From positions 1 to 33,571 of the IMG/VR virus record IMGVR_UViG_3300042338_000284: a stretch of 33,571 bases of DNA; one strand, given 5' to 3'. A program made the position numbers and the translations under genes. The notes under the pieces were generated by a model that saw nothing but the letters and a program-made list of their open reading frames with translations, made no database searches and had not been told where the DNA came from. Each line of letters starts with the position of its first letter. Within the stretch, counting starts at the first letter, position 1. This DNA comes from a virus. Below, piece by piece: positions 11,143 to 23,426 of the stretch.

Positions 11143-12056
11143 CCTACACAGTCAGCGTTGGAAACCTTGACGGAGACTACTCAGGCGCGCAGAACCTTTC
11201 GCCGGCGACTCTCGCCGCTGCGCTGAACATCGTCTCGGGCTTGTCGGTTAAGTCGCGCTCGGTCACCTCGCCGCCGCGCTTGCCCGCCTTTGGCGATCGG
11301 TACATCGTCGCAGTTCCTGCAATCAAGGGCTGGCTTGGCAAGGACAACCTTATCGCGGTCTGGGTCGGTGACGCGTGGGCGTACGTCACTCCGTATGACG
11401 GGCTCGAGGCTTGGGACGAGGAGCTCGCGGAGAGCGTGCGCTATGACGCAGGAGCTTGGATCGTCCTCGCCAGTAGCGACACGGTTATCAACCTTGCGGC
11501 GAAAAACACCTCGGGCGGCACGCTGCTGATCGGCACGCCCGTGTATGTGACGGGCGCGGTCGGCGCTTCCGGTGAAGTTGAGGTCGCGGCTGCGGATGCG
11601 GCAAACTCCGCCAAGATGCCCGCCATCGGCATCCTCACAGCCACGCTGCTGAACAATGCACATGGAACGGCGCGCGCGATGGGTGTGATCCGCAACCTCG
11701 ACACCAGCGCGTACTCGATCAACTCGCCGGTGTTTGTCGCTTCCGGCGGCGGATTGACGGCCACGCGGCCTACGACGAGCACGGTGCTTGTGCAGAACAT
11801 GGCGCGCGTGATTCGCGTGCACGCTTCGACCGGAGAGATCTTGGTCATGGGGCCTGGGCGCACCAACGACGTGCCGAACACCGCGCAGGGTGTGCTCCTC
11901 GGGCGCGGCTCGACGAGCGGCTCAGGTCCAGCTGAAGCGATCACCGTCGGCAGCGGCCTGTCGCTCTCGGGCACTACGCTTTCCGCGACCGGCGGCGGCG
12001 GCGGCGGTGGTGTGTCCTTGGCAAGTGTCCGGAAGTCTGTGAGTCTACGCCTATGA
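11139..12056 (+). CDS. Tail fibre-like protein with DUF2793-like N-terminus and C-terminal polyglycine
   Basis: A 305-aa protein with its ATG overlapping the previous stop (ATGA). Residues about 40-110 resemble DUF2793: a PPRLPAFGDRYIV start, a GWLGKDNLIAVW segment and a GDAWAYVTPYDGLEAW segment, known from alphaproteobacterial phage and GTA-like tail regions. Residues about 115-250 form a repetitive beta region (NTSGGTLLIGTPVYV..., a capsid- or fibre-decoration style fold). The end is a seven-glycine run at residues 285-291 encoded by five GGC and two GGT codons (11991-12011), followed by only 14 residues. Such glycine linkers usually join to another fibre domain, so this gene looks shortened or rearranged at its 3' end. 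Confidence 0.7.
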   Translation: MTYTVSVGNLDGDYSGAQNLSPATLAAALNIVSGLSVKSRSVTSPPRLPAFGDRYIVAVPAIKGWLGKDNLIAVWVGDAWAYVTPYDGLEAWDEELAESVRYDAGAWIVLASSDTVINLAAKNTSGGTLLIGTPVYVTGAVGASGEVEVAAADAANSAKMPAIGILTATLLNNAHGTARAMGVIRNLDTSAYSINSPVFVASGGGLTATRPTTSTVLVQNMARVIRVHASTGEILVMGPGRTNDVPNTAQGVLLGRGSTSGSGPAEAITVGSGLSLSGTTLSATGGGGGGGVSLASVRKSVSLRL

Positions 12057-13237
12057 TTCTTCTCACCGCGACTACCCACGCTCTGGAACTCGGCACGAGC
12101 TCCACGAGTTCGACCGACTGGACGTGCTCCTACGTGGACATGACGTCCACCGATACTACGCCTGGATCGGAGCACGGTAACGTCGCCAGCGCGACCACGA
12201 CGACTATCGCGGCAGCTCCTGCGGCTTCGACGCAGCGACAGATCAAGCACATCAGCTTGCGCAACAAGAACACGGCATCGCAGACCGTGACGATCAAGAA
12301 GGATGTCAGCGGCACCGAATACGTGGTGTTCCGCGCGACGCTCGAAAGCAACGAGGGAGCCGAATACAACGACGGCAAAGGTTGGACGTGCTTTGATGCG
12401 CAGGGCCGCGCAAAAACGATGGAGCCCGCGTCGTTGAGTCAAACCGGCGCTCGCCCCCGTTCGATCTACAAGACTGGAACGGCGGCAGAAGGCACGGCTT
12501 ACTGGTACGGGTACTGGAAAGACGCTGGCTTTCCTGGCGCTTGGTCGCCTAACACGTCCGGCATCAACGGTCGGGCGACTGACGGAATGGCGGCTGGCGA
12601 TGTCGGCTGCTTGGAGCTTTGGACGCCGACCGGCGCGCTCTATTTGGAAGCGGCGACTTCAGCCGTTACCGCAACCGCATTTCCGATGCTGTTCGATGTC
12701 CTGTGGGTGAATAACGGCATCGTGGTCACGACCACAACGGCACAGGCAATCACGACGCCGACTTTGCCCGCGCGTGACGACAACGGCGCGACGATCGGCG
12801 AAGGCTGCATGATTGGCCTGATCTGGACCGCTGCAAGCACAAACGCAGCGGCGATCACAAACTCGACGGTCACCTATACCAACTCCGCAGGTACGGGATC
12901 TCGCACCGCAACCTTGGTGGCGGTCGCTGGCGATCAGATCCCTCCGACTCCGGTCATCGGCACCGTGGTTTGGTTTCGGCTTGCTGATGGCGACACCGGC
13001 GTGAGATCCATTCAGTCGATCACACTTGGCACGTCGCTCGTGACGGGCTCGGTGTCTCTGATTATTGCTCGCCCGCTCACGTCTTGGGCAAACTCGACTG
13101 TGAACGTCGGCTTCAGAAATGAATACAAGGCGCCAGGTCTGCGACTCTGGACTGGCACTTGCGCTTTGATGTTCCACAAGAGCGTCAGTAGCTCGGCCAC
13201 CACCATCCACGCTACGTTTGAGATCTCGGAGCGATAA
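12053..13237 (+). CDS. Putative tail fibre / receptor-binding protein
   Basis: A 394-aa protein, ATG overlapping the previous stop (ATGA at 12053). Residues about 60-125 form a compact beta domain (IKHISLRNKNTASQTVTIKK... then a Gly-Trp-x-Cys stretch) seen in small virion accessory proteins. The middle holds aromatic-rich segments (AYWYGYWKDAGFPGAW near 160) and the remainder is Thr/Val/Ala-rich beta sequence. No enzyme motif is visible. Position after the tip protein and within the fibre cluster suggests a receptor-binding or adhesion subunit. The family could not be named with confidence. Confidence 0.6.
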   Translation: MILLTATTHALELGTSSTSSTDWTCSYVDMTSTDTTPGSEHGNVASATTTTIAAAPAASTQRQIKHISLRNKNTASQTVTIKKDVSGTEYVVFRATLESNEGAEYNDGKGWTCFDAQGRAKTMEPASLSQTGARPRSIYKTGTAAEGTAYWYGYWKDAGFPGAWSPNTSGINGRATDGMAAGDVGCLELWTPTGALYLEAATSAVTATAFPMLFDVLWVNNGIVVTTTTAQAITTPTLPARDDNGATIGEGCMIGLIWTAASTNAAAITNSTVTYTNSAGTGSRTATLVAVAGDQIPPTPVIGTVVWFRLADGDTGVRSIQSITLGTSLVTGSVSLIIARPLTSWANSTVNVGFRNEYKAPGLRLWTGTCALMFHKSVSSSATTIHATFEISER

Positions 13238-13239
13238 GC

Positions 13240-14025
13240 ATGGCGACGACAACCTATCTCGGTCTTACGAAGCTCACCGCCGGTCAAGCCAGCGCGGAGA
13301 TCACCGTCAACGGCGCGCTCACGGCGCTCGACGAGCAAGCCGACCGCGCTGAGACGCTGGTGCTGGAGGACGACTTCACGGGCGGGATCGGCACCAGCTC
13401 GCAGCCTTTCATCGCGGCGAGCTCGGGTACGGGCGCGAGCGTCTCCAACTCGGGCTACACGGGCGAGCAGAATCGCGTCGGCGTGGCGGTTCTTGCGACG
13501 GGCACGACGACCACCGGCTATGCATCGGTGCACACGGCCTCGGCTGCGCTTGTGAGGCTGGGCGGCGGCGAGTGGCGCGCTCGAGCGATCTTTCGGCTTG
13601 AGGATCTCAGCGACGCCACGGACACGTACACGCTGCGGATCGGCCTCGGAGACTCGCAGGTCGCTGGCGAGCCGACCGACGGCTGCTTCGTGCGCTACAC
13701 GCACGGCACGAACTCTGGCAAGTTTGAAGCGGTCACACGGTCCAACGGCACCGAGACTGCGACGGACACGACGGTCGCAGCCGTGGCGGACACGTGGTAT
13801 CGGGTCGAGATCATCGGCAACGCGACGAGCTCGGAGGTCGCCTTCTGGCTCAAGGAAGGCACCGACGACCTCACCCTGCGGGCGACCAACACGACGAACA
13901 TCCCGACGGCGGCGGGGCGCGAGACCGCGGTTCAGGCGTCGATCATCAAGAGCGCAGGGACCAACTCGCGCAGCTGCTACCTCGACGTGCTTGCGCTGCG
14001 GCTGGCGTTTACGACGGCGCGTTAG
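13240..14025 (+). CDS. Putative tail fibre protein with concanavalin/LamG-like C-terminal domain
   Basis: A 261-aa protein from ATG 13240, two bases after the preceding stop. The N-terminus (YLGLTKLTAGQASAEITVNG, then ALTALDEQAD) has the helical look of fibre attachment regions. From about residue 45 the sequence DDFTGG..., ARAIFRLEDLSD, YTLRIGLGDS and DTWYRVEIIGN, with a closing YLDVLALRLAF strand, matches the strand order of concanavalin A-like/LamG lectin folds that bind carbohydrates. It is the last gene of the rightward structural run and is followed by a convergent terminator region. It is probably the distal host-recognition protein, although a minor structural role is possible. Confidence 0.65.
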   Translation: MATTTYLGLTKLTAGQASAEITVNGALTALDEQADRAETLVLEDDFTGGIGTSSQPFIAASSGTGASVSNSGYTGEQNRVGVAVLATGTTTTGYASVHTASAALVRLGGGEWRARAIFRLEDLSDATDTYTLRIGLGDSQVAGEPTDGCFVRYTHGTNSGKFEAVTRSNGTETATDTTVAAVADTWYRVEIIGNATSSEVAFWLKEGTDDLTLRATNTTNIPTAAGRETAVQASIIKSAGTNSRSCYLDVLALRLAFTTAR

Positions 14026-14107
14026 TATGATCTGAAACGAGCTCACGAGAGTCTACCTCGGGGGCGTTGAGGAGCTTGCGACGCTGGTAACGAAGCGAGC
14101 TCAAGTG

Positions 14108-14158
14108 AAGGCTGCAAATGGTCTGGCGGGCTCAACACCGCCTGAACGTTGCAGCCTT
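14108..14158 (+). terminator. Nested hairpin downstream of structural genes
   Basis: A perfect 10-bp inverted repeat, AAGGCTGCAA (14108-14117) with TTGCAGCCTT (14149-14158), encloses a second perfect stem GGCGG (14125-14129) with CCGCC (14138-14142). There is no clean U-tract after it, so it may act as a Rho-assisted stop or a 3' end stabiliser rather than a textbook intrinsic terminator. Confidence 0.55.
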
Positions 14159-14174
14159 TGCGCTTTCAAAAGGC

Positions 14175-14210
14175 AAGAGGACCGACGCCCCCCCGGGTAT
14201 CGGCCCTCTT
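14175..14210. terminator. Possible bidirectional terminator hairpin
   Basis: AAGAGGaCCGA (14175-14185) pairs with TCGGcCCTCTT (14200-14210) as an 11-position stem with one mismatch. The loop holds a run of seven Cs. Read on the minus strand the stem is followed by a T-rich stretch (CTTGCCTTTTG), which fits the end of the leftward SSB operon. Read on the plus strand the stem ends in CTCTT. Confidence 0.5.
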
Positions 14211-14262
14211 GGAGGGCGATCTCTGGCAAGTCACCCTCGGCGAGCTCCTCGTCGCCCTGCTA

Positions 14263-14280
14263 CGCGTGTGGATACACGCG
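14263..14280. repeat. Short perfect hairpin after the SSB gene
   Basis: CGCGTGT (14263-14269), loop GGAT, ACACGCG (14274-14280), located 17 bases beyond the SSB stop codon. It has no adjacent T-tract, so it may protect the leftward messenger's 3' end. A chance palindrome cannot be excluded. Confidence 0.35.
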
Positions 14281-14296
14281 CTGCGCCGCGCTTGAG

Positions 14297-14665
14297 CTAG
14301 AAGTCGACGCTCTGGTCATCCTGCGGTTTCGTCGATTGTGGGCGCTTGTAGGCGTCGCCGCAGAACTCCCAAGAGTCTGCGACCATCGTCAACCGCACGC
14401 GGTCCTTGCCATCTTGGTCTTTCCAGTTGTGCTGGTACAACCGACCCGTGCACAGCACCGTCGAGCCCTTGCGGTGAAAGCGGTGAAAGCTCTCGGCCAG
14501 CTGGTCGAAGCAGGTGATGTCGAGGAACACGACCTCGTCTTCGCCGCCCTTGCGCTTGCGGTTGATTGCCATCGAGGAGCGGCAGACGGGACGCCCGTTC
14601 GCGCCAGTCTTGAGCTCAGGGTCGCGCGTCAGCCGTCCGCCGACGATCAGGATGTTGATGTTCAT
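14297..14665 (-). CDS. ssb: Single-stranded DNA-binding protein
   Basis: A 122-aa protein with an OB-fold N-terminus: MNINILIVGGRLTRDPELK, then a SMAINRKRK segment, VVFLDITCFDQLAE, KGSTVLCTGRLYQHNW and VRLTMVADSWEF, the normal SSB order. The linker is very short and the C-terminus is DDQSVDF, an acidic tip ending in Phe like those that recruit partner proteins. It is shorter than cellular SSBs (about 170-180 aa), as phage versions often are. It is the last gene of the leftward early operon containing Exo and Bet, so it probably serves replication and annealing-based recombination. Its ATG overlaps the stop of a tiny upstream gene (ATGA). Confidence 0.92.
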   Translation of the reverse strand: MNINILIVGGRLTRDPELKTGANGRPVCRSSMAINRKRKGGEDEVVFLDITCFDQLAESFHRFHRKGSTVLCTGRLYQHNWKDQDGKDRVRLTMVADSWEFCGDAYKRPQSTKPQDDQSVDF

Positions 14666-14760
14666 GCGTCGTCTTTCGGGTCAGGCCCGTTCAGCTGTTC
14701 GTCTACCCACCATAGCACGGCGATGATGAGGGCGAGGAGGCAGTAGCCGGTCGCTTTCAT
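14662..14760 (-). CDS. Very small membrane protein (32 aa)
   Basis: ATG at 14758-14760 and TGA at 14662-14664, overlapping the SSB start as ATGA. The product starts MKATGY, has one hydrophobic segment (CLLALIIAVLWWV, about residues 7-19) and ends in a charged tail (DEQLNGPDPKDDA). The Lys2-then-hydrophobic-then-acidic order predicts N-in, C-out topology. Tight coupling to SSB and intact coding support a real gene, but no homologue is recognised. No strong Shine-Dalgarno is present, so translation may depend on the gene before it. Confidence 0.55.
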   Translation of the reverse strand: MKATGYCLLALIIAVLWWVDEQLNGPDPKDDA

Positions 14761-14772
14761 GTTGTGCTGCTT

Positions 14773-15024
14773 TCACCATGCGTCCCTAGGGTCTGCTTCG
14801 ATCGGCGCGTCCTTGTCGGCAGAAAGCAACGCGTCGTGCTTTGCGCGTAGATCCGCGATGCGTTGATCGAGAAAACGCAAGACGCCTTGCACCGCTTCGC
14901 TGTCTTGGCTTGGAAAGCTGGCCCCAGTCCCAGCACCAAGCCACAGGCCGCGCAGCTTGTTCTCACGCGCTTGCATCGTCAGCCGCAAGTGACGAGCAAC
15001 TTCAAAAAGTTCGTCACTTCGCAT
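14773..15024 (-). CDS. Hypothetical helical protein, 83 aa
   Basis: ATG at 15022-15024 overlaps the end of the preceding gene by 11 bases. The product starts MRSDELFEVARHLRL and ends in an acidic segment (ADKDAPIEADPRDAW). Two helices are likely (residues 1-28 and 45-70), separated by a Gly-rich loop (GAGTGASFPSQ). No membrane segment or known motif is seen. Position between Bet and SSB in the leftward operon suggests a link to DNA metabolism or host takeover, but this is context only. Confidence 0.6.
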   Translation of the reverse strand: MRSDELFEVARHLRLTMQARENKLRGLWLGAGTGASFPSQDSEAVQGVLRFLDQRIADLRAKHDALLSADKDAPIEADPRDAW

Positions 15025-15337
15025 TGCGGTCGTGTTTTCTTTCCATCATTGCCTGATAGTACCCATCAAAACAATCATTTTCATCTTTGAAAACGATGTC
15101 TTGAAGTTTTGCCATCGTATGGGGATTGTTTTTTACGATGTGATGCAAGATGAACAGACGTACATACTCGTCGTTGGAAATTTCTTCACAGCGCGTCACC
15201 AACGCATCAATCCGTTCGGCAAGGGTGGAGTCGCCATCATTGGGTTCGCAAATAGCCTCCCAACATTTTTCAATCGTGTCTTTCAGTTCTGCGTTTTCCC
15301 TTTTGAGTTCGTTCAGCTCAGACCATAGCGACTTCAT
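15014..15337 (-). CDS. Hypothetical coiled-coil protein on an AT-rich island
   Basis: A 107-aa protein whose ATG overlaps the Bet stop (ATGA at 15334-15337), with GGAG just upstream. The first 25 residues (LNELKRENAELKDTIEK) have clear heptad spacing of a coiled coil. The rest is helical and charged with many Asp and Glu and a Lys/Arg-rich tail. The coding DNA is much richer in A and T than its neighbours (about 40-45 percent GC by eye against 60 or more), with A- and T-ending codons, which suggests recent transfer. No family is recognised. Confidence 0.65.
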   Translation of the reverse strand: MKSLWSELNELKRENAELKDTIEKCWEAICEPNDGDSTLAERIDALVTRCEEISNDEYVRLFILHHIVKNNPHTMAKLQDIVFKDENDCFDGYYQAMMERKHDRNAK

Positions 15338-15990
15338 TGGATCTCCTTTTCGGTTTCAACCTGCGCTTGCGCCTCCAGCGTATCGGTCAAGCTCGATAGC
15401 GTCGTGGCGCTCGCCTCGATCACGCGCTCGCGCTGCTGCGCTTCGACGATGCGCTCGGCTTCGTCGGGCTCGTAGATGCCGCTGAAGCCGAAAGCGACGC
15501 GCAGCCCTTGGATCAGCGCCTTGTGACGCAACATCCGCCGCGGCTGCGTGCGCCAAGGATCGGTGCCGCGCGCGCACTCTGCGTAGTACTCGGTGACCGT
15601 GATAGGGTGCGTGCGATCCTTGCGATGCACAGTCGCGGTCACGCTGACCAGCGCGCCCTTCTCGTCGTTGTTCTCGACGAGCTGCACGCCGTCGGCAGCA
15701 GGGTGTTCGTTCATGAGCTTGATCCAGCCGTCCACGCCGACGACCGGCACGATGCCGCCGCCCTTCGACGGGAAGGCATAGATCTCCTTCGTCAGAGGGT
15801 TCAGGTGGTACTGGTCAGCGACCAGCAGCACGGCAGCGACCTGCTCGGGCGTCGCCTTTCCGCCAGGCACGACGGTCGCCATTAGGGTGCGCTCGAAGGC
15901 CTGTCGATCCATGCCGAAACGCTCGGCCATGCGGATCATCACGGAGTTGCTCTTCGTGCGTTCAATCGGTGCGGGCAAGTTCTGAGTCAT
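15334..15990 (-). CDS. bet: Phage recombination protein Bet (lambda Red beta-like annealing protein)
   Basis: A 218-aa protein. The start at 15990 (MTQNLPAP) is chosen because AAAGGAG lies at proper spacing; longer frames run into the Exo gene. It matches lambda Bet in order and wording: RMAERFGMD, LLVADQYHLNPLTKEIYAF, then IVPVVGVDGW, HRKDRTHPITVTE, and RRMLRHKALIQ followed by RVAFGFSGIYEPDEAERIVE. Bet binds single strands and anneals complementary DNA, working with the 5'-3' exonuclease encoded just upstream. It is slightly shorter than lambda Bet (261 aa) and lacks part of the C-terminal domain. The stop of Exo overlaps its start. Confidence 0.95.
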   Translation of the reverse strand: MTQNLPAPIERTKSNSVMIRMAERFGMDRQAFERTLMATVVPGGKATPEQVAAVLLVADQYHLNPLTKEIYAFPSKGGGIVPVVGVDGWIKLMNEHPAADGVQLVENNDEKGALVSVTATVHRKDRTHPITVTEYYAECARGTDPWRTQPRRMLRHKALIQGLRVAFGFSGIYEPDEAERIVEAQQRERVIEASATTLSSLTDTLEAQAQVETEKEIQ

Positions 15991-16832
15991 TGTTGTGCGC
16001 TCCTTTGCGCGTTTCGGATCTTGGTCTTCGCTTCCATCCAACTCTTGGCGCCGGTGATCTGAACCAAGCGGTTCTGACGGTCACCGACCTGCTCTTCTAG
16101 TTCGCTGATCTGAGCCTGGAGCTCGACGACCTGCGACATGGTGTCTTGTACCTCGCCGCTCAGGCTCCATTCAATCGGAGCGGCCAGTTCTTTCAGCACG
16201 GCCTTGTCGGCCTCGCCAGCGCGCGCAATCGGCGGGATGTCGCGGGCGACGTGGTAGTCCAAGAAGTGCTGGATGCGCTCGAGCGCGGCATCGATGAAAC
16301 GCTGGTCGCGGAGCACGTCGAAGTGCTTGATGCCTGGCCAGATCAGCGCGCTGAAGCTCGCGGCCTCGGCGCCGATCACTTCCATGCCGATCTGCGCCTG
16401 CACTTGATACTCCAGCGGGATCGCTTCCTGCCAAGCCTCGGCCTTCCACGGCGCTGGCGCTTTCATCTCGAAGACAGCGCCGAGCGGCAGCTGGTCGCTC
16501 AAGTCCGCGCTGACGATGAGTCCGTCGGGAGTGTACGCCAGCCAGTCAAGGCGTTCGTGTTGGACGATGCCGTCGAGCATCTCAACGCCGCGGCCCGTGG
16601 CGAGCTCGTACAGCTTGCGGTTGAAGGGCTCGCTGTGAATGCCCCACAAGTGCCACGGCTCGACCTTGTTCGGCGGCGCGGCCTTGTTCGTCAATCGCGC
16701 CCACTCGGTCAGCGGGCTCGACCACTTGGGATTCGACACACCAAGGATCGCGGCGGCGGTGCTGCCCGTCACGCGCGAGCGGCGGTATTCGAACCACTCA
16801 GGACTGAGCGGCGCGGCTTTGATCAGCTTCAT
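15987..16832 (-). CDS. exo: YqaJ/lambda Exo-family 5'-3' exonuclease
   Basis: A 281-aa protein starting at 16832, with GAGGAG upstream. Motifs of the YqaJ/lambda Exo fold: an EWFEYRRSRVTGSTAAAILG-type N-terminal substrate segment, the metal ligand Asp in TPDGL (Asp103), then FEMKAP with Glu122 and Lys124, and a Gln-rich helix near EYQVQAQIGM. The last 60 residues are a predicted coiled coil absent from lambda Exo (226 aa). It degrades 5' strands of double-stranded DNA to give 3' tails for the Bet protein encoded next. The gene before it overlaps its start by 35 bases, so translation is coupled. Confidence 0.92.
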   Translation of the reverse strand: MKLIKAAPLSPEWFEYRRSRVTGSTAAAILGVSNPKWSSPLTEWARLTNKAAPPNKVEPWHLWGIHSEPFNRKLYELATGRGVEMLDGIVQHERLDWLAYTPDGLIVSADLSDQLPLGAVFEMKAPAPWKAEAWQEAIPLEYQVQAQIGMEVIGAEAASFSALIWPGIKHFDVLRDQRFIDAALERIQHFLDYHVARDIPPIARAGEADKAVLKELAAPIEWSLSGEVQDTMSQVVELQAQISELEEQVGDRQNRLVQITGAKSWMEAKTKIRNAQRSAQQ

Positions 16833-17085
16833 CGGTCATCTCCTCGTCGTTGGTAAGGTCTTCGATCGTGTTCTCGTCGGCTTCTTGCCAGCCGTCGTCC
16901 CAGCCAAACGCAGCGTTGATCCGCGCTCGCTGTTCGTCGCTCATCCGGCGACGCCCGTAGAGGATGGCGTCGATCGTGCTCTTCGGCAAGCCGGAGTGCA
17001 CGGCGAGGTGCTCGACGCGCCAGTTGCGCGCGTTCATGCCGCCGCGGATGACCCGCGCGTGCATGTGCTTCAACGTCTCCTTCAC
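16798..17085 (-). CDS. Small helix-turn-helix DNA-binding protein
   Basis: A 95-aa protein starting at GTG 17083-17085, overlapping the previous stop (GTGA) and preceded by GAGGAGGTG at good spacing. Residues about 22-60 (EHLAVHSGLPKSTIDAILYG, then RRRMSDEQRARINAAF) have the helix order of lambda-repressor-like HTH domains. The C-terminal 30 residues are very acidic. It is too small for a CI-type repressor and has no cleavage or oligomer domain, so a Cro- or Arc-sized transcription regulator of the early region is more likely. It sits immediately before Exo in the leftward operon. Confidence 0.72.
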   Translation of the reverse strand: MKETLKHMHARVIRGGMNARNWRVEHLAVHSGLPKSTIDAILYGRRRMSDEQRARINAAFGWDDGWQEADENTIEDLTNDEEMTDEADQSRAAQS

Positions 17086-17492
17086 GACTGCACCTCCTCG
17101 GCCTCGACCTCGACCTCGATCGGCAGCTCGACCCACGCTTGCAGGTACACGATGCGCGGCAGCGGCATCTGCTGCTCGACACAATCTTGTTGCAGCCAGC
17201 CGATGCGCTCATGGAACTCATCGGTCTTGACGACATCGTTCACGCCTTCGCTGGCGAGCTGGAACGTGGTCCACGCGCCATTACCGCCGACGATCGCGGG
17301 CACGCGAATCTGGACCTTGCACGGCGCAGGGATGGAAAAGCGCGACTCGCGGATCGCCGCCGAGCGGATCTGCGCGCCGAAGCAAACGAAGCACAGGTTC
17401 CGGATCGTCTCGTAGAACAGATCGCCGCCATCACGCATCGGCACGGCGAGGTCGCGGCAGTTGTCGTTCTTGGCACACTCACAGCACTTCAT
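17082..17492 (-). CDS. Hypothetical Cys-rich protein, probable zinc binder
   Basis: A 136-aa protein starting at 17492, with GAGGAG upstream. The N-terminus MKCCECAKNDNC has Cys at 3, 4, 6 and 12, and a second CxxC (CFVC) lies near residues 34-37, so two half-sites for a metal are present. The middle (residues 50-90) is a beta segment and the end (LPIEVEVEAEEVQS) is acidic. No family is recognised. It belongs to the coupled leftward early operon: its stop is shared with the HTH gene's GTG and its start lies within the end of the gene before. Confidence 0.68.
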   Translation of the reverse strand: MKCCECAKNDNCRDLAVPMRDGGDLFYETIRNLCFVCFGAQIRSAAIRESRFSIPAPCKVQIRVPAIVGGNGAWTTFQLASEGVNDVVKTDEFHERIGWLQQDCVEQQMPLPRIVYLQAWVELPIEVEVEAEEVQS

Positions 17493-17793
17493 TGGCAATC
17501 TCCTCAGGTAGGTAAAAGGACATGGATTCAATCCCACAGCGTTCAATGTGATCGTAGACCTCGCGGTCACTTTTGGCGAGGCGAATGATCTCTTCGCCGT
17601 CGCCAAGGCCGATCACGTAGCCTTGCTCTTTCAACATCCCCAGCCAGTCGATCTCGTCGAGGACGCAATCGCCTTCCCACGCAAGCCACTCGCGCTGGCG
17701 GTACGTCAGGTTGTCGTCGAGCCACAGGCGGAACCAGTTTTCGTCGCGCAGCGGCAGCTCGACGGTCAGTTGCAGGGGGAATTGATACTTCAC
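17479..17793 (-). CDS. Hypothetical acidic protein, 104 aa
   Basis: Start GTG at 17791-17793 overlaps the previous stop (GTGA); no other start fits. The product opens with a strand (KYQFPLQLTVELPL), continues with Trp-rich helices (ENWFRLWLDDNLTYRQREWL, then AWEGDCVLDEIDWL) and ends in a Glu/Asp-rich helix. It is strongly acidic and cytoplasmic by appearance. No motif is recognised. As an early, small acidic protein it could be a host-takeover or anti-defence factor, but this is inference from place and charge only. Confidence 0.62.
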   Translation of the reverse strand: MKYQFPLQLTVELPLRDENWFRLWLDDNLTYRQREWLAWEGDCVLDEIDWLGMLKEQGYVIGLGDGEEIIRLAKSDREVYDHIERCGIESMSFYLPEEIANEVL

Positions 17794-17918
17794 TTTGTCA
17801 CCGCCTCGACGATGCCGACCACGAAGGGCTCGAGCAGGTCCGCCACGTGCATGGCAAAGAAGAAGCATCCCGCGACAAAGATCAGCGCCACGGGCGAGTC
17901 GTCCTTGCGGCGCTTCAC
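17790..17918 (-). CDS. Very small membrane protein (42 aa)
   Basis: GTG at 17916-17918 overlaps the previous stop (GTGA) and its own stop overlaps the next GTG. The product starts VKRRKDDSP, then has one long hydrophobic segment (VALIFVAGCFFFAMHVADLL) and a short tail (EPFVVGIVEAVTK). The basic N-terminus predicts N-in topology. With the 32-aa protein near SSB it is one of two single-pass peptides in this operon. A holin-like or superinfection-exclusion role is possible, but nothing in the sequence fixes it. Confidence 0.6.
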   Translation of the reverse strand: MKRRKDDSPVALIFVAGCFFFAMHVADLLEPFVVGIVEAVTK

Positions 17919-18283
17919 GAGACACCGCCTTCGTCGTACGCGTCGGCGAGGTTGCGGAAATAAGCGAGGCGATCGGCTGCGGCGTCGATCGCGTCGTCGC
18001 AAGCCTCGTCAAGCGCGCGCTGGAACGCGGCCTGATCGCCGCTATCGACCCACGCCTTCGCCATGTTGGCGATGTGGCAGTTGTAGGACTGGTTGCGCCA
18101 CACGGCGTCGCCGAACCTTTTGGGTTTCACCGAAAAGCCCTGCGCCGCCATGCCCGCGACGATGTTCTCAACGAGCAAATCCGAAATGTCGTCGAAGATG
18201 TCGGCGTCGTAGAGGTCGCGCGCGTCGAGCCGCTCGGCGAGGATGCTGTCGGGGGCGAGGAATACGGTCGTCGTGTTGATCAT
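17915..18283 (-). CDS. Hypothetical acidic protein, first gene of leftward early operon
   Basis: A 122-aa protein. The start at 18283 (MINTTTVF) is chosen because AAGGAG sits 7 bases upstream; an ATG two codons earlier would touch that site. It is helical and markedly acidic (runs such as ARDLYDADIFDD and DEACDDAIDAAAD). As the promoter-proximal gene of a divergent early operon it is a good candidate for an early host-modifying protein, for example a DNA-mimic or inhibitor. No homologue is recognised and this role is inferred from charge and position. Confidence 0.62.
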   Translation of the reverse strand: MINTTTVFLAPDSILAERLDARDLYDADIFDDISDLLVENIVAGMAAQGFSVKPKRFGDAVWRNQSYNCHIANMAKAWVDSGDQAAFQRALDEACDDAIDAAADRLAYFRNLADAYDEGGVS

Positions 18284-18523
18284 GGTCATCTCCTTGTCGT
18301 TGTACCGCGCCGCGATGTGCTGCGCTTGTGACTGTGTATACGGCACGTTTCGAGGTTTAGTTCACCTGTTTCTCGCTTTTCGTCCAACTTCCCGCCTTTG
18401 GGAAAGCGTTGCAGGGCTGGAAAAGGGCCTCGCAGGACCGTACGAAGGCACCCGCAGGGCAAAGAAGAAGGCCAGCGGGGGGTCCGCCAGCCTTCGAGGA
18501 ATCGCCCCGCCACAGGGTGAGAG
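18284..18523. promoter_or_regulatory. Divergent early control region
   Basis: About 240 bases separate the leftward operon (start 18283) from the rightward operon (start 18524), so divergent promoters must lie here or read through it. A TGTATAC palindromic patch around 18334-18340 gives a TATACA on the minus strand that could be a -10 element, but no good -35 lies at 16-18 bases. No rightward promoter could be picked with confidence. A clear stem-loop (18467-18495) lies in the rightward leader. No gene is seen in this stretch. Confidence 0.55.
18467..18495 (+). promoter_or_regulatory. Leader stem-loop of the rightward early operon
   Basis: GAAGGC (18467-18472) pairs with GCCTTC (18490-18495) and GCGG (18475-18478) with CCGC (18484-18487), around a symmetric CA/CA internal loop and a GGGGT apex. 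It ends 28 bases before the first ATG. It may influence transcription or translation of the replication operon; no U-tract follows. Confidence 0.45.
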
Positions 18524-18838
18524 ATGACGAAGCGATCTAGGGCCAGCATAGCGGGCTGGCAGGTTCCCAACAAACTCCCGCAGGGCTTCCGCCTGCACGT
18601 CGAGGCACGGGCATCGCAGCCGCTGACGGCGCTGCCTGATGAGGTGACCGTCGAGGCCACGGCTACGCTCTCGCGCGGCGAGGCCGTCGGGCGCGCATAC
18701 ACCGTGCTGCTGCGGCTTTCGGCAAGCGACGAGCAAGCGTGCATCAGCCGCCTTCTGCACCTCGCGGACAGCGGGGCGATGCGCGACCTGCCGGTGCTGT
18801 TGAAGGTCGGCTGGAAGTCGCTGGAGGTGCTGCCGTGA
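18524..18838 (+). CDS. Hypothetical protein, first gene of rightward replication operon
   Basis: A 104-aa protein from ATG 18524, with GGTGAGAG just upstream as a weak ribosome binding site. It is basic at the N-terminus (MTKRSRASIAGW), with alternating strands in the middle (FRLHVEARAS, EVTVEATATLSRGE) and a C-terminal helix pair. No motif is recognised. Its stop overlaps the next GTG (GTGA), so it is coupled to the following genes. Position at the head of the replication operon suggests an early accessory role. Confidence 0.65.
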   Translation: MTKRSRASIAGWQVPNKLPQGFRLHVEARASQPLTALPDEVTVEATATLSRGEAVGRAYTVLLRLSASDEQACISRLLHLADSGAMRDLPVLLKVGWKSLEVLP

Positions 18839-19155
18839 CTACGCCCAGAAAGCTCTCGAAGGAGCAGCGCAAGCGCAACACCGCTGTGCAGCTCGCGCGC
18901 GACGCGCGTCTGCGGGCCGAGATGTCAGACCTGCCCTACCAAAGCGAGCTCACGATTGCTCGCCGCCTCGCAGCCTTGCGCCAAGCGACCAAGGCCTTCG
19001 GCGATGCGCAGCAAGCCATCGTGGCCGCGCAAGACCTGCCGACCATTCAGCGGATCACCGCGGAGCTCCCGCGGCTCCAGCTCGAGGTCGTGCGCTGCCG
19101 CGTCGCCCTTGGGATGCCCGCGCAAGCTCAGATGCCGCTTGGACGGAGGTCGTAA
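18835..19155 (+). CDS. Hypothetical helical protein, 106 aa
   Basis: Starts at GTG 18835 within the GTGA overlap and ends in a TAATG overlap with the initiator gene. The N-terminus is strongly basic (TPRKLSKEQRKRNTAVQLAR) and the rest forms long Ala/Arg/Gln-rich helices, so a nucleic-acid-associated helical bundle is plausible. No family is recognised. It lies directly before the replication initiator and has a good GGAGG near its 3' end that serves the next gene. Confidence 0.62.
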   Translation: MTTPRKLSKEQRKRNTAVQLARDARLRAEMSDLPYQSELTIARRLAALRQATKAFGDAQQAIVAAQDLPTIQRITAELPRLQLEVVRCRVALGMPAQAQMPLGRRS

Positions 19156-20030
19156 TGAGCCACCCTTATGATCGGTACATGCCGTTCTTCGGAGCCGACT
19201 TCTACGAGTCCGAGAACGTGCTTTGCATGAGCCTTGCGGGGCAAGCCGTGTATCTTCGCGCCCTGTGGTATCAGTGGAAGCACGAGTCGCTGCCGACCGA
19301 GCTTGAGCGCCTTGCGCGCGTACTCGGCATCGGCCTCGACGAGATGCAGCGGCTCTGGCCTGAGATCCAGCCCTGCTTTGAGGTCGTGGACGGTCGCCTT
19401 CTCAACGTTCGATGTGCCGTCCAACGAGAGCGCATCCTCGTTACCGCTAAGGCAGCGTCCAAGGCGGGAAAGGCAAGCGCCGCCAAACGCTCGTCCAACG
19501 CAGAGGCAACGCCCGTTGAACGCCCGTTCAACGCTCGTTCAACGCCCGTTCAACCAGAAGAGGAGAGGAGAGGAGAAGAGAGAAGAGAAATACAAGAACC
19601 CCCTCTTCCCCCTACGGGGGATGCCCCCGCAGACGAAGCCAAGCCCGCCAAGCGCCGCAAGGCCGAGACGTGGCAGGCCGTCCTCGAGCAGCCGGAGTTT
19701 GCGACCCTCAAGGCTGATCCCGCCTTCGCCCTCGCGTGGCAGGACTGGGTGAAGCACTGCCGGACAGCTGGAAGCAAGGCCAAGGAGCCGCAAGGCATCC
19801 GCGCTGCCAAGATCTTCCGCGAGGCGATGCGCGAAGGATCCGCGCGCTACGCTCGAGCTATCGAGCAAGCCATCATCCACAACTGGCAGGGCATCTGGGT
19901 GCGCGACGACGCTCGCCCAGCCCAACAGGCCGCAGCGCAGCCGCGAAACGCCTCGCAACGCAATCTCGACATCCTTCAATCGAGCTTTGAAAAGCTCGGC
20001 ATCATCGGAACGCAGGAGCGCCTACTATGA
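19155..20030 (+). CDS. Replication initiator-like protein (DUF1376 N-terminus, lambda O-like organisation)
   Basis: A 291-aa protein from ATG 19155 (TAATG overlap, GGAGG upstream). Residues 1-90 resemble DUF1376: YMPFFGADFYES, LAGQAVYLRALWYQWKHES, LPTELERLARVLG and a CFEVVDGRLLN close, a winged-helix-like module common in phage replication proteins. Residues about 105-155 form a low-complexity linker (SSNAEATPVERPFNARSTPV, then a Glu/Arg run) whose DNA carries an iteron array and a purine tract. The C-terminal part (about 165-291) is a helical domain with QDWVKHCRTAG and AARIF-like segments. DNA-binding N-terminus, origin in the linker and a C-terminal partner domain match the plan of lambda O. 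The following gene may be the helicase loader. Confidence 0.82.
   Translation: MSHPYDRYMPFFGADFYESENVLCMSLAGQAVYLRALWYQWKHESLPTELERLARVLGIGLDEMQRLWPEIQPCFEVVDGRLLNVRCAVQRERILVTAKAASKAGKASAAKRSSNAEATPVERPFNARSTPVQPEEERRGEERREIQEPPLPPTGDAPADEAKPAKRRKAETWQAVLEQPEFATLKADPAFALAWQDWVKHCRTAGSKAKEPQGIRAAKIFREAMREGSARYARAIEQAIIHNWQGIWVRDDARPAQQAAAQPRNASQRNLDILQSSFEKLGIIGTQERLL
19486..19590 (+). other. Putative replication origin: 11-bp iterons plus purine tract inside the initiator gene
   Basis: Units of the form AACGCCCGTTC repeat at an exact 11-bp period from 19486: AACGCTCGTCC, AACGCAGAGGC (degenerate), AACGCCCGTTG, AACGCCCGTTC, AACGCTCGTTC and AACGCCCGTTC, ending at 19551. CGTTGAACG (19514-19522) and CGTTCAACG (19525-19533) also form a perfect 9-bp dyad. 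Then comes an uninterrupted 35-base purine run (19556-19590). Eleven is not a multiple of three, so the repeat is not an amino acid repeat; it matches about one DNA turn, placing sites on one face. In lambda the origin also lies in gene O, as iterons followed by a strand-asymmetric purine-rich region. Confidence 0.78.
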
Positions 20031-20416
20031 CCGACAAGAGCAAGATCATCTCTCAGTGCCTCGCCCTCATCTCTGCAACCTACGCCGCGAAGTTCCCGAC
20101 GAACGAATACACCGCTGGCGTTTGGATCGTACTGCTCGACGACATCCCGCCCGACGAGCTGCAGGCCGTGGTGATCGACTGGTGCCGCACAATGGACTGG
20201 CCGCCGACTCCAGCCGAGCTACGCAAGCGATGCCCGTCTCAATGCAAATGCGGGCAGTGCATTTCGTGCAAGCGCAAGATCGCGCAACAGATCATCCAGC
20301 GCGGCGCAGCCAAGCGACTGAACGGCAGCGGGTCGTACGGCATTGAGCCGAGCGACTGGGCGCTTTTCCGCGATTCGCGCAACCGACTCGGGCCCGCGCA
20401 AGAGGACGGTGAGTGA
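20027..20416 (+). CDS. Putative helicase loader-like protein with Cys cluster
   Basis: A 129-aa protein whose ATG overlaps the initiator stop (ATGA). Residues about 8-68 (LALISATYAAKFPTNEYTAG, VWIVLLDDIPPDEL, VVIDWCRTMDWPPTPAELRK) resemble the N-terminal helical domain of the SPP1 gp39/G40P helicase-loader family, which has the same position after an initiator. A cysteine cluster follows (Cys69, 73, 75, 78, 81), probably binding zinc. It is placed directly after the lambda O-like gene, where lambda has P, so loading of the host DnaB helicase is the likely job. Similarity is by pattern only. Confidence 0.62.
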   Translation: MTDKSKIISQCLALISATYAAKFPTNEYTAGVWIVLLDDIPPDELQAVVIDWCRTMDWPPTPAELRKRCPSQCKCGQCISCKRKIAQQIIQRGAAKRLNGSGSYGIEPSDWALFRDSRNRLGPAQEDGE

Positions 20417-20664
20417 TGTACGAGCAAACGAAGTACCGTCATCGGCTCGAGCTTTCGCGCCAGCTGTTCGATCAGCTGCTCGGCAGCAAGCGCAAGATGT
20501 TCCGCGCTCGTCTCAGCAAGTATCGCAGCGACTACATCACCCTCGACGGCGGCGAGGTTGTGCGCTCCATCTGGAGGAGCTGGAAAGCGCATAACTGGAT
20601 CTACCAAGTGGACGGCGAGCTCTGGGCAATCACGCATCCGGCGGACAGGCTGAAGTGGGAATGA
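20416..20664 (+). CDS. Hypothetical basic protein in replication operon
   Basis: An 82-aa protein starting at ATG 20416 in a TGATG overlap (GTG 20413 would add one residue). It is rich in Arg, Lys, Trp and Tyr (KYRHRLELSRQLFDQLLGSK, RKMFRARLSKYRSD, SIWRSWKAHNWIYQVDGELW). The high positive charge and short length suggest a nucleic-acid-binding accessory protein. No family is recognised. Its stop overlaps the RusA-like gene start (ATGA), so the two are translated together. Confidence 0.62.
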   Translation: MYEQTKYRHRLELSRQLFDQLLGSKRKMFRARLSKYRSDYITLDGGEVVRSIWRSWKAHNWIYQVDGELWAITHPADRLKWE

Positions 20665-21098
20665 TGCGCAACCACAAGTTCTTTGTCGTCGGCAAGCCCG
20701 AAACGCAGGGCTCTATGCGCGGCTTCGTCGTGAACAACCGAGCGATCTTGACCTCGACCAACAAGCGACTCAAAAGCTGGCGCTTCAATGTGGCCGAAAC
20801 TGCGCTGGCAAACGGCTGGGGCCATGAACTCATTGACGGGCCCGTGCGTCTCGACCTCGACTTCCGCGTGCGCCGTCCGCTCGCGCACTACGGCAAGGCA
20901 GGGCTCAAGGCCAACGCGCCAAAGCACCCGCACACCCACGTCGGCGACCTCGACAAGCTGATACGCGCGATTGGTGATGCGCTCACCGACGTAGTTTGGA
21001 CCGACGATCGGCGCATCGTGGACATCCTCGCGTGCAAGTCGTACGCCGAGCACAAGGCCAGCGAGGGCGTCTACATCATCATCACGGAGCTTGAATGA
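20661..21098 (+). CDS. RusA-family Holliday junction resolvase
   Basis: A 145-aa protein starting at ATG 20661 (ATGA overlap; ATG 20664 is an alternative). It matches RusA in order: FFVVGKPETQGSMR at the N-terminus, RLDLDFRVRRP in the middle, then HVGDLDKLIRAIGDALTDVVW and TDDRRIVD. The acidic metal-binding residues are Asp96, Asp98 and Asp115/116. RusA cleaves four-way junctions, resolving intermediates made by Bet and Exo or branched DNA before packaging. Length is normal for the family (about 120-145 aa). It lies just before the terminase genes. Confidence 0.92.
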   Translation: MMRNHKFFVVGKPETQGSMRGFVVNNRAILTSTNKRLKSWRFNVAETALANGWGHELIDGPVRLDLDFRVRRPLAHYGKAGLKANAPKHPHTHVGDLDKLIRAIGDALTDVVWTDDRRIVDILACKSYAEHKASEGVYIIITELE

Positions 21099-21379
21099 CC
21101 GAGAACAAAGATGCGCTCAAGCTGGCTTTCCTGCTCGACCTTCTCGACGGTCAGCACAAACGCCGCCGCGAGTTCTTCTGGCTCGCGCGAATCGACACCG
21201 ACTGGATGCATGTTGAAGGAACCAAGCTCGACGTGAGCAGCTCGCAGCTGCGCAAGTGGATCTCCTCGCTGTGGATCGAGTACCGCCGCGAGGGTGATAG
21301 GATGCGAGTCCAGATCCTCAACGAAGGCCGCGACGCGGCAAGGAACGCTCTCAGGCAACATGGCAAGACCGCGAAGTGA
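21095..21379 (+). CDS. Hypothetical protein between resolvase and small terminase
   Basis: A 94-aa protein, ATG overlapping the RusA stop (ATGA). It is helical with a conspicuous RREFFWLARIDTDWMHVEGT segment near 29-47 and a basic C-terminus (ARNALRQHGKTAK). The 3' end overlaps the small terminase start by 20 bases. No motif is recognised. It may be the last gene of the replication run or an accessory to packaging. Confidence 0.6.
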   Translation: MTENKDALKLAFLLDLLDGQHKRRREFFWLARIDTDWMHVEGTKLDVSSSQLRKWISSLWIEYRREGDRMRVQILNEGRDAARNALRQHGKTAK

Positions 21380-21743
21380 AATGACCGACGAGGTGATCGA
21401 GCGCATTTTGGCGGCGATCAGGCTTGGTCTACATCCACAAAGAGCAGCCGAAGCGAATGGTGTCGCTGCTTCAACACTGAAGTCGCACAAGAAGCGTCAC
21501 CCTGAGTTTGCGTCCTTGATAAAAGAGGCCGAGGCCATCGCTGAGAGCACCTTCCTCGGCAAGATCATGCGGCACACCGACGACCAGTGGACCGCGTGCG
21601 CTTGGATGCTCGAGCGCCGCTGGCCCGAGCGTTGGGCCAAGCGTGAAGCCCCGATCACCTCCAACGAGGCGCGCGACATGGTGAACCGGCTGCGCGCCGC
21701 TGCCCAGTTCGTCAACGACACGATCCCGAAGGAGCCGAGCTAG
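21360..21743 (+). CDS. terS: Terminase small subunit (HTH, DNA recognition)
   Basis: A 127-aa protein. The start at 21360 (MARPRSEMTDE) is chosen because it opens like many small terminases; an upstream frame to 21294 lies inside the previous gene. An HTH is visible at about residues 8-50 (TDEVIERILAAIRLG, HPQRAAEANGVAASTLKSH, KKRHPEFASLIKEAEA), followed by WMLERRWPERWAKR and a C-terminal helix for ring assembly or contact with the large subunit. It would bind the packaging site and deliver DNA to the motor encoded at 22068-23426. Two tiny genes lie between the subunits. Confidence 0.82.
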   Translation: MARPRSEMTDEVIERILAAIRLGLHPQRAAEANGVAASTLKSHKKRHPEFASLIKEAEAIAESTFLGKIMRHTDDQWTACAWMLERRWPERWAKREAPITSNEARDMVNRLRAAAQFVNDTIPKEPS

Positions 21744-21907
21744 TGGAAGACTACAACACTTGGACCGACGCTCAGTTGTTTGAAGAGATTGATCGTCTCA
21801 TCACTTCGATCGCGTCTGGCACTTCGCAAGATCCGACCGTGACCGCAGCCGCGATGCGCACGGTGCATGAAATGTTCGCGGTCATCAACGCGAGGCACAA
21901 TCCATGA
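21743..21907 (+). CDS. Small hypothetical protein between terminase genes (54 aa)
   Basis: GTG at 21743-21745 overlaps the small terminase stop, and TGA at 21905-21907 overlaps the next ATG. The product begins MEDYNTWTDAQLFEEIDRLI and has one or two helices with no motif. The perfect coupling on both sides argues that it is a real gene. It may be a packaging accessory; nothing in the sequence defines it. Confidence 0.55.
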   Translation: MEDYNTWTDAQLFEEIDRLITSIASGTSQDPTVTAAAMRTVHEMFAVINARHNP

Positions 21908-22068
21908 AAGACCTGTCCAAAATGACCGAAGAAGAGATCCGCGCTGAGATCTCGCTTCAGGAATACAAGGCCGACGAAACACAGGCGTTGGACATTTCGA
22001 CGCTGTTTCTGATCCTGCGCACGCTTATTGAGCTTTGGCGCGAGCTTGATCGGCGGCGTCAAAAGTAG
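21904..22068 (+). CDS. Small hypothetical protein between terminase genes (54 aa)
   Basis: ATG 21904 overlaps the previous stop, and TAG 22066-22068 overlaps the GTG of the large terminase. The product starts MKDLSKMTEEEIRAEISLQE, then has a hydrophobic helix (LDISTLFLILRTLIELW) and a basic end (RELDRRRQK). The middle could be a peripheral membrane helix or a buried packing helix. No family is recognised. Confidence 0.55.
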   Translation: MKDLSKMTEEEIRAEISLQEYKADETQALDISTLFLILRTLIELWRELDRRRQK

Positions 22069-23426
22069 TGCAGCCGAACCTGCTGCCCGCGCGCTGGAAG
22101 CCCCTGCGCTATCACCCAAAGCAAGCTGCCGCGTTCACCTCGAGCGCGCGATTCATCGTCGTTGAGGCAGGTCGCCGATCGGGCAAGAGCGAGCTCGCCA
22201 AGCGCAAGGGCGTGCAGCTCGCGCTGACGCATCACGAACGCAGCGCGTTCAACGACGGGCTCTACATCTTCGCGGCCCCGACACGCGAGCAGGTCAAGAG
22301 CATCTACTGGGGCGACCTGAAGCGCATGGTGCCGAACTGGGCCGTGCTCAAGATCGCGGAGACGGACCTCGCCATCGAGCTGGTGAACGGCGCGCGGATC
22401 CAGTGCGCGGGAATGGACAAGCCGCAGCGCATCGAGGGCAAGCCGATCGATTGGATCGCGTGCGACGAAATGCAGGAGTGGAAGGCGGGAATCTACGACC
22501 GCAACGTGCGACCTGCGCTCGAAACGCCTGAGCGCGCGGGCGGCGCGTGGTTCTACGGAGTGCCGAGGCCTGGGGCCGAGTTCGAAAAGCTCGTCAAGAT
22601 CGCCAAGAGCGGCAAGCCGGACTGGGCATACTTCACGTGGACGAGCGAAGGTCTGATGACCTCCGAAGCCGTGGACAGCGCGCGCGAGACAATGGACGCT
22701 CGCGTCTTTCGGCAGGAGTTCATGGCCGAGCGCGTGGCGATGCAGGGCCGCGCGTACCACAGTTTCGAACGCGAAGTGCACGGGCGCGAGCAGCTGGCCT
22801 ACAGCCGGTCGGCGCCACTGTGTATCTGCTTCGACTTCAACGTGGAGCCAGGCATCGCGGTGATCGCCCAGCAGCAGCTCTTCCGGCGGTCAGCCGGCGA
22901 GCGCGCCGACCGTCCAGAGGTCGCGGACGAGATCATCGCGGTCGTTGGAGAGGTTTGGATCCCGCACGACTCGCGTACCGAGCACGTCTGCCGCAAGATC
23001 CTCGCGGACTGGGGCCACCACGAGGGCCACGTGCTCGCCTACGGTGACGCGACGGGAGGCTCGAGGCACACGTCGCAGGTCGCTGAGGGCACCGACTGGC
23101 ACATCATTCGATCCATGCTCACGGAGGGATTCCGCGGGTCGGTCGAAGTGCTGCATCACCGGCGGAACCCGCCCGAACGCGATCGCGTCAACGCTCTCTG
23201 CTCGCGGCTGCGATCGGCGGACGGCAGGGTGCATCTCCTAGTCTCGTCGGACTGCCCGAACATGCTCGACGACCTCGACGGCACGATGCTTTTGGAAGGC
23301 GGCGCGGGCGAAATCGACAAGGCCAAAGACCGTCGTCGGACGCACATGACCGACGCGCTTGGCTACATGGTTGAGTACGAGCACCCTGTGCGCTTAGTCT
23401 CGGTGACGGATTCGGAGATCGTATGA
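22068..23426 (+). CDS. terL: Terminase large subunit (ATPase and nuclease)
   Basis: A 452-aa protein starting at GTG 22068 (overlapping TAG). The ATPase has Walker A GRRSGKS (residues 35-41) and a Walker B ending in Asp133-Glu134 (IDWIACDEMQ). The RNase H-like nuclease domain shows Asp256 in CFDFNVEPG, Asp327 in AYGDATGG and Asp429 in HMTDALGY, the expected three acidic sites. It pumps DNA into the procapsid and cuts concatemers. The length is normal. The packaging mode (headful or cos) cannot be read directly; the terminal overlap of the contig is compatible with either. Confidence 0.95.
   Translation: MQPNLLPARWKPLRYHPKQAAAFTSSARFIVVEAGRRSGKSELAKRKGVQLALTHHERSAFNDGLYIFAAPTREQVKSIYWGDLKRMVPNWAVLKIAETDLAIELVNGARIQCAGMDKPQRIEGKPIDWIACDEMQEWKAGIYDRNVRPALETPERAGGAWFYGVPRPGAEFEKLVKIAKSGKPDWAYFTWTSEGLMTSEAVDSARETMDARVFRQEFMAERVAMQGRAYHSFEREVHGREQLAYSRSAPLCICFDFNVEPGIAVIAQQQLFRRSAGERADRPEVADEIIAVVGEVWIPHDSRTEHVCRKILADWGHHEGHVLAYGDATGGSRHTSQVAEGTDWHIIRSMLTEGFRGSVEVLHHRRNPPERDRVNALCSRLRSADGRVHLLVSSDCPNMLDDLDGTMLLEGGAGEIDKAKDRRRTHMTDALGYMVEYEHPVRLVSVTDSEIV

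Follow-up and report, generated by a model that had tools for sequence, protein, structure and literature searches.

The segment 19486-19590 of the window (the whole stretch of 33,571 bases analysed here, from a virus record) is the predicted replication origin of the phage, located inside the gene for its own initiator, and this reading, together with the stepwise mechanism proposed for it, is given a probability of about 0.86. The predicted origin is best read as one of the theta type, planned like the lambda O/ori region and plasmid pSK41 rep, with different iterons and with an initiator that does not belong to the lambda O family. Its two elements, an iteron array at strict 11-bp phase and the tract that follows it, are real and selected as DNA. 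They occur mostly in initiator genes and in a fixed order and polarity, and the half-site varies among relatives with the 11-bp plan kept. The features of the region, all on the + strand, are the following:

19155-20030, +: initiator-like gene of 291 aa, with a DUF1376-like winged-helix N-terminal domain, a linker and a C-terminal part
19176-19418, +: part coding for the DUF1376-like domain, residues 8-88 (PF07120, E 1.5e-5; predicted winged helix, pLDDT above 90)
19486-19551, +: iteron array, six 11-bp registers (AACGnnCGTT plus one base) starting at 19486, 19497, 19508, 19519, 19530 and 19541
19552-19555, +: terminal half-site AACC, touching the tract (in relatives, the last unit is most often followed by CAACC)
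19556-19590, +: all-purine tract of 35 nt, near-periodic at 5 bp, directly after the array; likely DNA unwinding region
19569-19952, +: C-terminal part, residues 139-266; matches O-like replication initiators weakly (phrog_678, E 9.3e-5)
20027-20416, +: helicase-loader-like gene, directly downstream in the position of lambda P (phrog_2289, E 4.3e-7)

Iteron array and purine tract

Array and tract are positioned between the DUF1376-like domain and the C-terminal part of the 291-aa ORF, within the linker, as a sequence-only reading of the same DNA had proposed. That reading had also described six repeat units with an 11-bp period. The six registers are indeed exactly 11 bp apart, but only four of the units, at 19508, 19519, 19530 and 19541, match AACGnnCGTT perfectly; register 19486 (AACGCTCGTC) has a single mismatch, and register 19497 (AACGCAGAGG) is degenerate, its right half being missing. 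The dyad noted earlier is present at two levels, since AACGnnCGTT is itself a palindrome and CGTTnAACG is one as well.

The array was compared with 5000 shuffles of the gene that permute synonymous codons and thus keep both the protein and the codon usage. The 11-bp self-match of the array is 35/44 (shuffles: mean 23.7, maximum 34) and the motif score of its four units is 32/32 (mean 23.6, maximum 29); none of the shuffles reached either value, and the best scores elsewhere in the window are 21 and 19, respectively. As no shuffle regains the array, selection acts on the DNA, and the earlier claim to this effect, as opposed to selection on the protein, holds. The all-purine run that follows is the longest purine or pyrimidine run of the window, the runner-up having 15 nt and the longest runs in 50 shuffled genomes not exceeding 20 nt. 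Its 5-bp period is stronger than in all 300 synonymous shuffles. About half of its bases are A, so that it is purine-rich rather than AT-rich.

The initiator protein and its relatives

The window protein is likely to be a divergent DUF1376 member. It scores 25.7 bits against PF07120, under the curated Pfam cut-off of 30.1, and, searched as a whole, matches phrog_9327, annotated as 'primosomal protein' (E 1e-9); the top Foldseek matches of its N-terminal domain in a viral library are DUF1376 proteins. The AlphaFold model of this domain (pLDDT above 90) is a winged helix, made up of helices, a wing of two strands and a long helix. A Foldseek search of the PDB gave no significant match to the model; the best, weak folds include the N-terminal domains of RepA_N plasmid Rep proteins (4pql, 4pta and 5kbj; Z 5.0-5.4) and of DnaD, with 5.4 as the highest Z. 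Neither did DUF1376 match solved structures by sequence (best E 0.12), and Pfam reports no RepA_N domain in the window protein. The modelled fold would suit DNA binding, short of proving it.

Whole-protein searches returned no close relatives in a phage collection or in genome contigs, and among viral contigs the sole match was one near-identical IMG/VR contig (L120), which shares 99.77% identity with positions 9119-22203 of the window (13,085 bases) and has an identical array. Comparison was therefore based on two handles, the DNA pattern and the DUF1376 domain. For the latter, the alignment made from 24 diverse domains proved too heterogeneous for use as a search profile, and relatives were gathered blind to the array, with nothing but the N-terminal domains from two DUF1376 subgroups as queries.

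Among these domain-picked relatives, at least one perfect AACGnnCGTT is found within the first 220 nt of the linker at 122 of 160 loci. In 40 of 45 non-redundant genes the array scores above 95% of the gene's own synonymous shuffles, and in 37 above 99%, a strongly positive outcome for the conservation of the 11-bp unit as DNA that the sequence-only reading had proposed as a check. In 102 non-redundant genes, arrays mostly have 2-5 units and up to 14. Units with a perfect left and a decayed right half (64 cases) outnumber the reverse (16), which makes the arrays directional. Some genes (L050, L114, L089, L095 and L118) carry iteron units outside the linker, inside the part coding for the DUF1376 domain, a location that again points to selection on DNA rather than protein. 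The gene after the initiator in relatives is often a helicase, a helicase loader or P/DnaC-like. In two rhizobial phages (L288, 1465-1923; L297, 1599-1781), the place of a P/DnaC-like loader after the DUF1376 gene is taken by a gene with a DnaA-like annotation.

A simple-repeat tract follows the array in nearly all domain-picked relatives. The median distance from the array to the start of the tract is 5 nt. Of 81 genes, 78 have a tract rich in A on the coding strand, and tracts average 69% AT, against 52% for the genes that contain them. The period of the tract tracks the type of initiator: in one DUF1376 subgroup it is 7 bp (22 of 23 genes), in the other 6 bp (20 of 22), and in the Lin1244_N family 5 bp (9 of 10), the value also found in the window.

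Some DUF1376 domains about 70% identical to each other go with AGCAnnTGCT, AGCG-type or AACA-type half-sites on an unchanged plan. Several domain residues separate the half-site classes, a comparison confounded by sequence relatedness, so that no specificity residue is named. AACG arrays are present in Sinorhizobium phage phiLM21, Moraxella Mcat21, Bordetella IFTN2, Pseudomonas PfDIW6, AH02, PfAn1 and Methylophilaceae P19250A; Vibrio 1.003 has other 11-bp units.

Distribution of the array among viruses

IMG/VR was also scanned with a DNA pattern of two units and a half-site (20 fixed bases) that holds no protein information. The array was found in at least 119 viral stretches, compared with two for a control scan with a scrambled palindrome of equal composition, neither of them in an initiator gene. 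Among the matches listed, arrays fall in 79 non-redundant ORFs. Likewise among the matches listed, 74 of the host ORFs were scanned for families, giving at least 61 for phrog_9327, at least 50 for DUF1376, at least 11 for Lin1244_N and at least 5 for DnaT, all of which are lower bounds because some ORFs were taken on the wrong strand (as in L109, where the likely initiator ORF lies opposite). The array is not peculiar to the window phage; DUF1376 and Lin1244_N initiators commonly have it.

The same AACGnnCGTT iteron is shared by Lin1244_N genes (L064, L067, L079, L032, L082 and others) and DUF1376 genes. The N-terminal domains of the two families are not linked by hhalign (probability 4%), nor is the DUF1376 family linked to lambda O, and for this reason common ancestry is not claimed; the common iteron may reflect convergence, shared ancestry or domain swapping.

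Bacterial genomes have the AACGnnCGTT pattern outside initiator genes and between genes too, for example in rumen Bacteroidetes, so that the pattern alone is not diagnostic. In the Bacteroidetes MAG RUG11969 (L308, L312, L315, L317, L319, L330, L334 and L351), the same 11-bp array lies at several places, in none of them within a long ORF, and is there a different repeat.

Comparison with known in-gene origins

Iteron origins inside the initiator gene are already known from lambda and pSK41. In lambda, semi-palindromic iterons lie in the linker-coding part of gene O (PMC7466680), and order and polarity are as in the window, with an A-rich coding-strand tract (26 A in 46 nt) after the iterons and then the loader gene P. 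The window has the corresponding features of a lambda-type origin, i.e., tandem iterons within the gene, a strand-asymmetric purine-rich tract and a loader gene directly downstream. The repeats themselves differ: the lambda iterons are 18 bp long, spaced at 20-24 bp and of sequence ATCCCTCAAAACGAGGGA, whereas those of the window are 11 bp long and of the form AACGnnCGTT. The proteins differ as well, as PF04492 (Phage_rep_O) is absent from the window protein in Pfam searches, in which lambda O itself scores E 5.7e-36, and hhalign gives the pair a probability of 0.1%. With the window protein outside the lambda O family, the likeness to lambda is one of plan. The earlier description of a lambda-like origin is supported as regards the layout of iterons, one-strand A/purine-rich tract and loader gene.

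In pSK41, the winged-helix N-terminal domain of Rep binds boxes in the middle of the rep gene; the protein has a central linker and a DnaD-like C-terminal domain (PMC5703833). Most RepA_N iterons are direct repeats of semi-palindromic form (PMC7145576). RepA_N domains are among the best weak folds for the window N-domain. In pSK41 and pTZ2162, the iterons have repeats of 8 and 9 bp that converge on a poly-A tract, unlike the 11-bp phased array of the window. The iteron and its strict phase of 11 bp differ from those of lambda and pSK41, as do the short-period tract and the families of the initiators. The array was not found described in the literature on DUF1376 and iterons, on in-gene phage origins or on oriJ, as covered mostly outside subscription journals, and no overlap was found between papers mentioning DUF1376 and the iteron papers listed. 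The statement of the sequence-only reading that a DUF1376-type initiator with such an array is undescribed agrees with this search.

The Rac prophage of E. coli has an active origin, oriJ (PMC3945230). Rac carries the DUF1376 initiator-like gene ydaU, followed by ydaV, with palindromes of the AACAnnTGTT type in the linker and, after them, the AAAGAT-type tract AAAGATACAGATAAAGAT. It differs from the window in its half-site and in the irregular spacing of 33, 33 and 12. The literature yielded no statement on the position of oriJ inside Rac; the linker palindromes and tract of ydaU are a candidate for it. In E. coli K-12 ydaU (L357, 4120-4977), AGCA/AACA-nn-TGTT palindromes lie at gene positions 353, 386, 419 and 431.

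Proposed mechanism and alternative explanations

The steps of binding, melting and loading are modelled on lambda O/ori (PMC7466680) and pSK41 Rep (PMC5703833). The winged-helix DUF1376-like domain would bind the AACG half-sites, one per helical turn. Several initiator molecules would then line up next to one another on the DNA and put it under strain, and the adjacent A/purine-rich tract would melt, as in lambda ori, exposing a strand unable to fold on itself. Finally, the C-terminal part of the initiator and the product of 20027-20416 may load the host DnaB helicase, from which theta replication would proceed.

An active oriJ in Rac, the carrier of a DUF1376 gene, is counted for the origin reading, as is, weakly, the presence of plasmid Rep initiators and DnaD N-domains among the best PDB folds. 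Counted against it are the weakness of those fold matches and the occurrence of the pattern outside initiator genes in bacterial genomes, as well as the cumulative GC skew, whose later minimum is shallow and lies at 21-22 kb, about 2 kb further downstream than the array; as a check proposed on the sequence-only reading, the skew comes out weakly supportive. The AT skew of the window goes positive at about 19-20 kb.

The array could instead be an operator, bound by the initiator to control its own transcription, with the origin elsewhere. Initiators often autoregulate, and any array that they bind could serve in this way, but this one sits mid-gene, more than 300 bp into the ORF and not at a promoter, and the simple-repeat tract found after it in nearly all relatives is something that an operator does not need, which makes this explanation improbable.

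Still smaller is the probability that the linker residues are what is needed and the DNA repeats are their by-product. The encoded motif N-x-R-S-T-x-V-Q-R does recur across the family; synonymous shuffles, however, keep the protein and lose both the array and the tract period. Moreover, the array period of 11 and the tract periods of 5 and 7 are not multiples of a codon, and the residues encoded by the tract vary widely (NQNQ, SPSP, KDKD, TETE and ITNNQEP) on a constant DNA layout. The odd dipeptide-repeat linkers of these proteins (NQNQ, SPSP, KDKD, ITNNQEP) would be explained as DNA signals read as protein.

Equally hard to sustain is a functionless origin of the array by slippage or recent tandem duplication. 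Slippage is a source of short tandem repeats, and the middle bases are identical in 60 of 111 adjacent perfect pairs; they differ, on the other hand, in the remaining 51. In addition, the array persists in proteins about 20% identical to the window protein. Across the 102 non-redundant genes, the half-site bases are conserved at about 0.8-0.98 and the two middle bases are free, a pattern that fits binding sites better than slippage. The least probable explanation is another DNA site (for packaging, partition or recombination) lying in the gene by chance, since such roles are also served by repeat arrays but this one is tied to replication initiator genes of two Pfam families.

The predicted in-gene origin provides a concrete, testable candidate for many phages and prophages, including Rac of E. 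coli K-12, whose initiators still carry the label 'hypothetical protein' or 'domain of unknown function'. How initiators recognise iterons and open DNA can be approached through the correlation of tract period with initiator subfamily and through the half-site changes among close relatives. A wider proposal, tentative and on balance doubtful, is that DUF1376 and Lin1244_N initiators represent a class of in-gene phage origins that is widespread, so far undescribed and marked by a two-part DNA code. Its first part would be an 11-bp phased symmetric iteron, with half-sites alternating about every half turn that might allow a continuous initiator filament, and its second a simple-repeat melting tract with a period (5, 6 or 7 bp) set by the initiator subfamily. 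If true, a period set in this way implies that the initiator or the loader reads the single-stranded tract in repeated steps.

A further family with an in-gene 11-bp array is seen in an actinophage, the Arthrobacter phage Chickaboom, whose HTH_36 initiator-like gene (L305, 739-1545) contains the unit CTTGAACCGTC three times with an exact 11-bp spacing.
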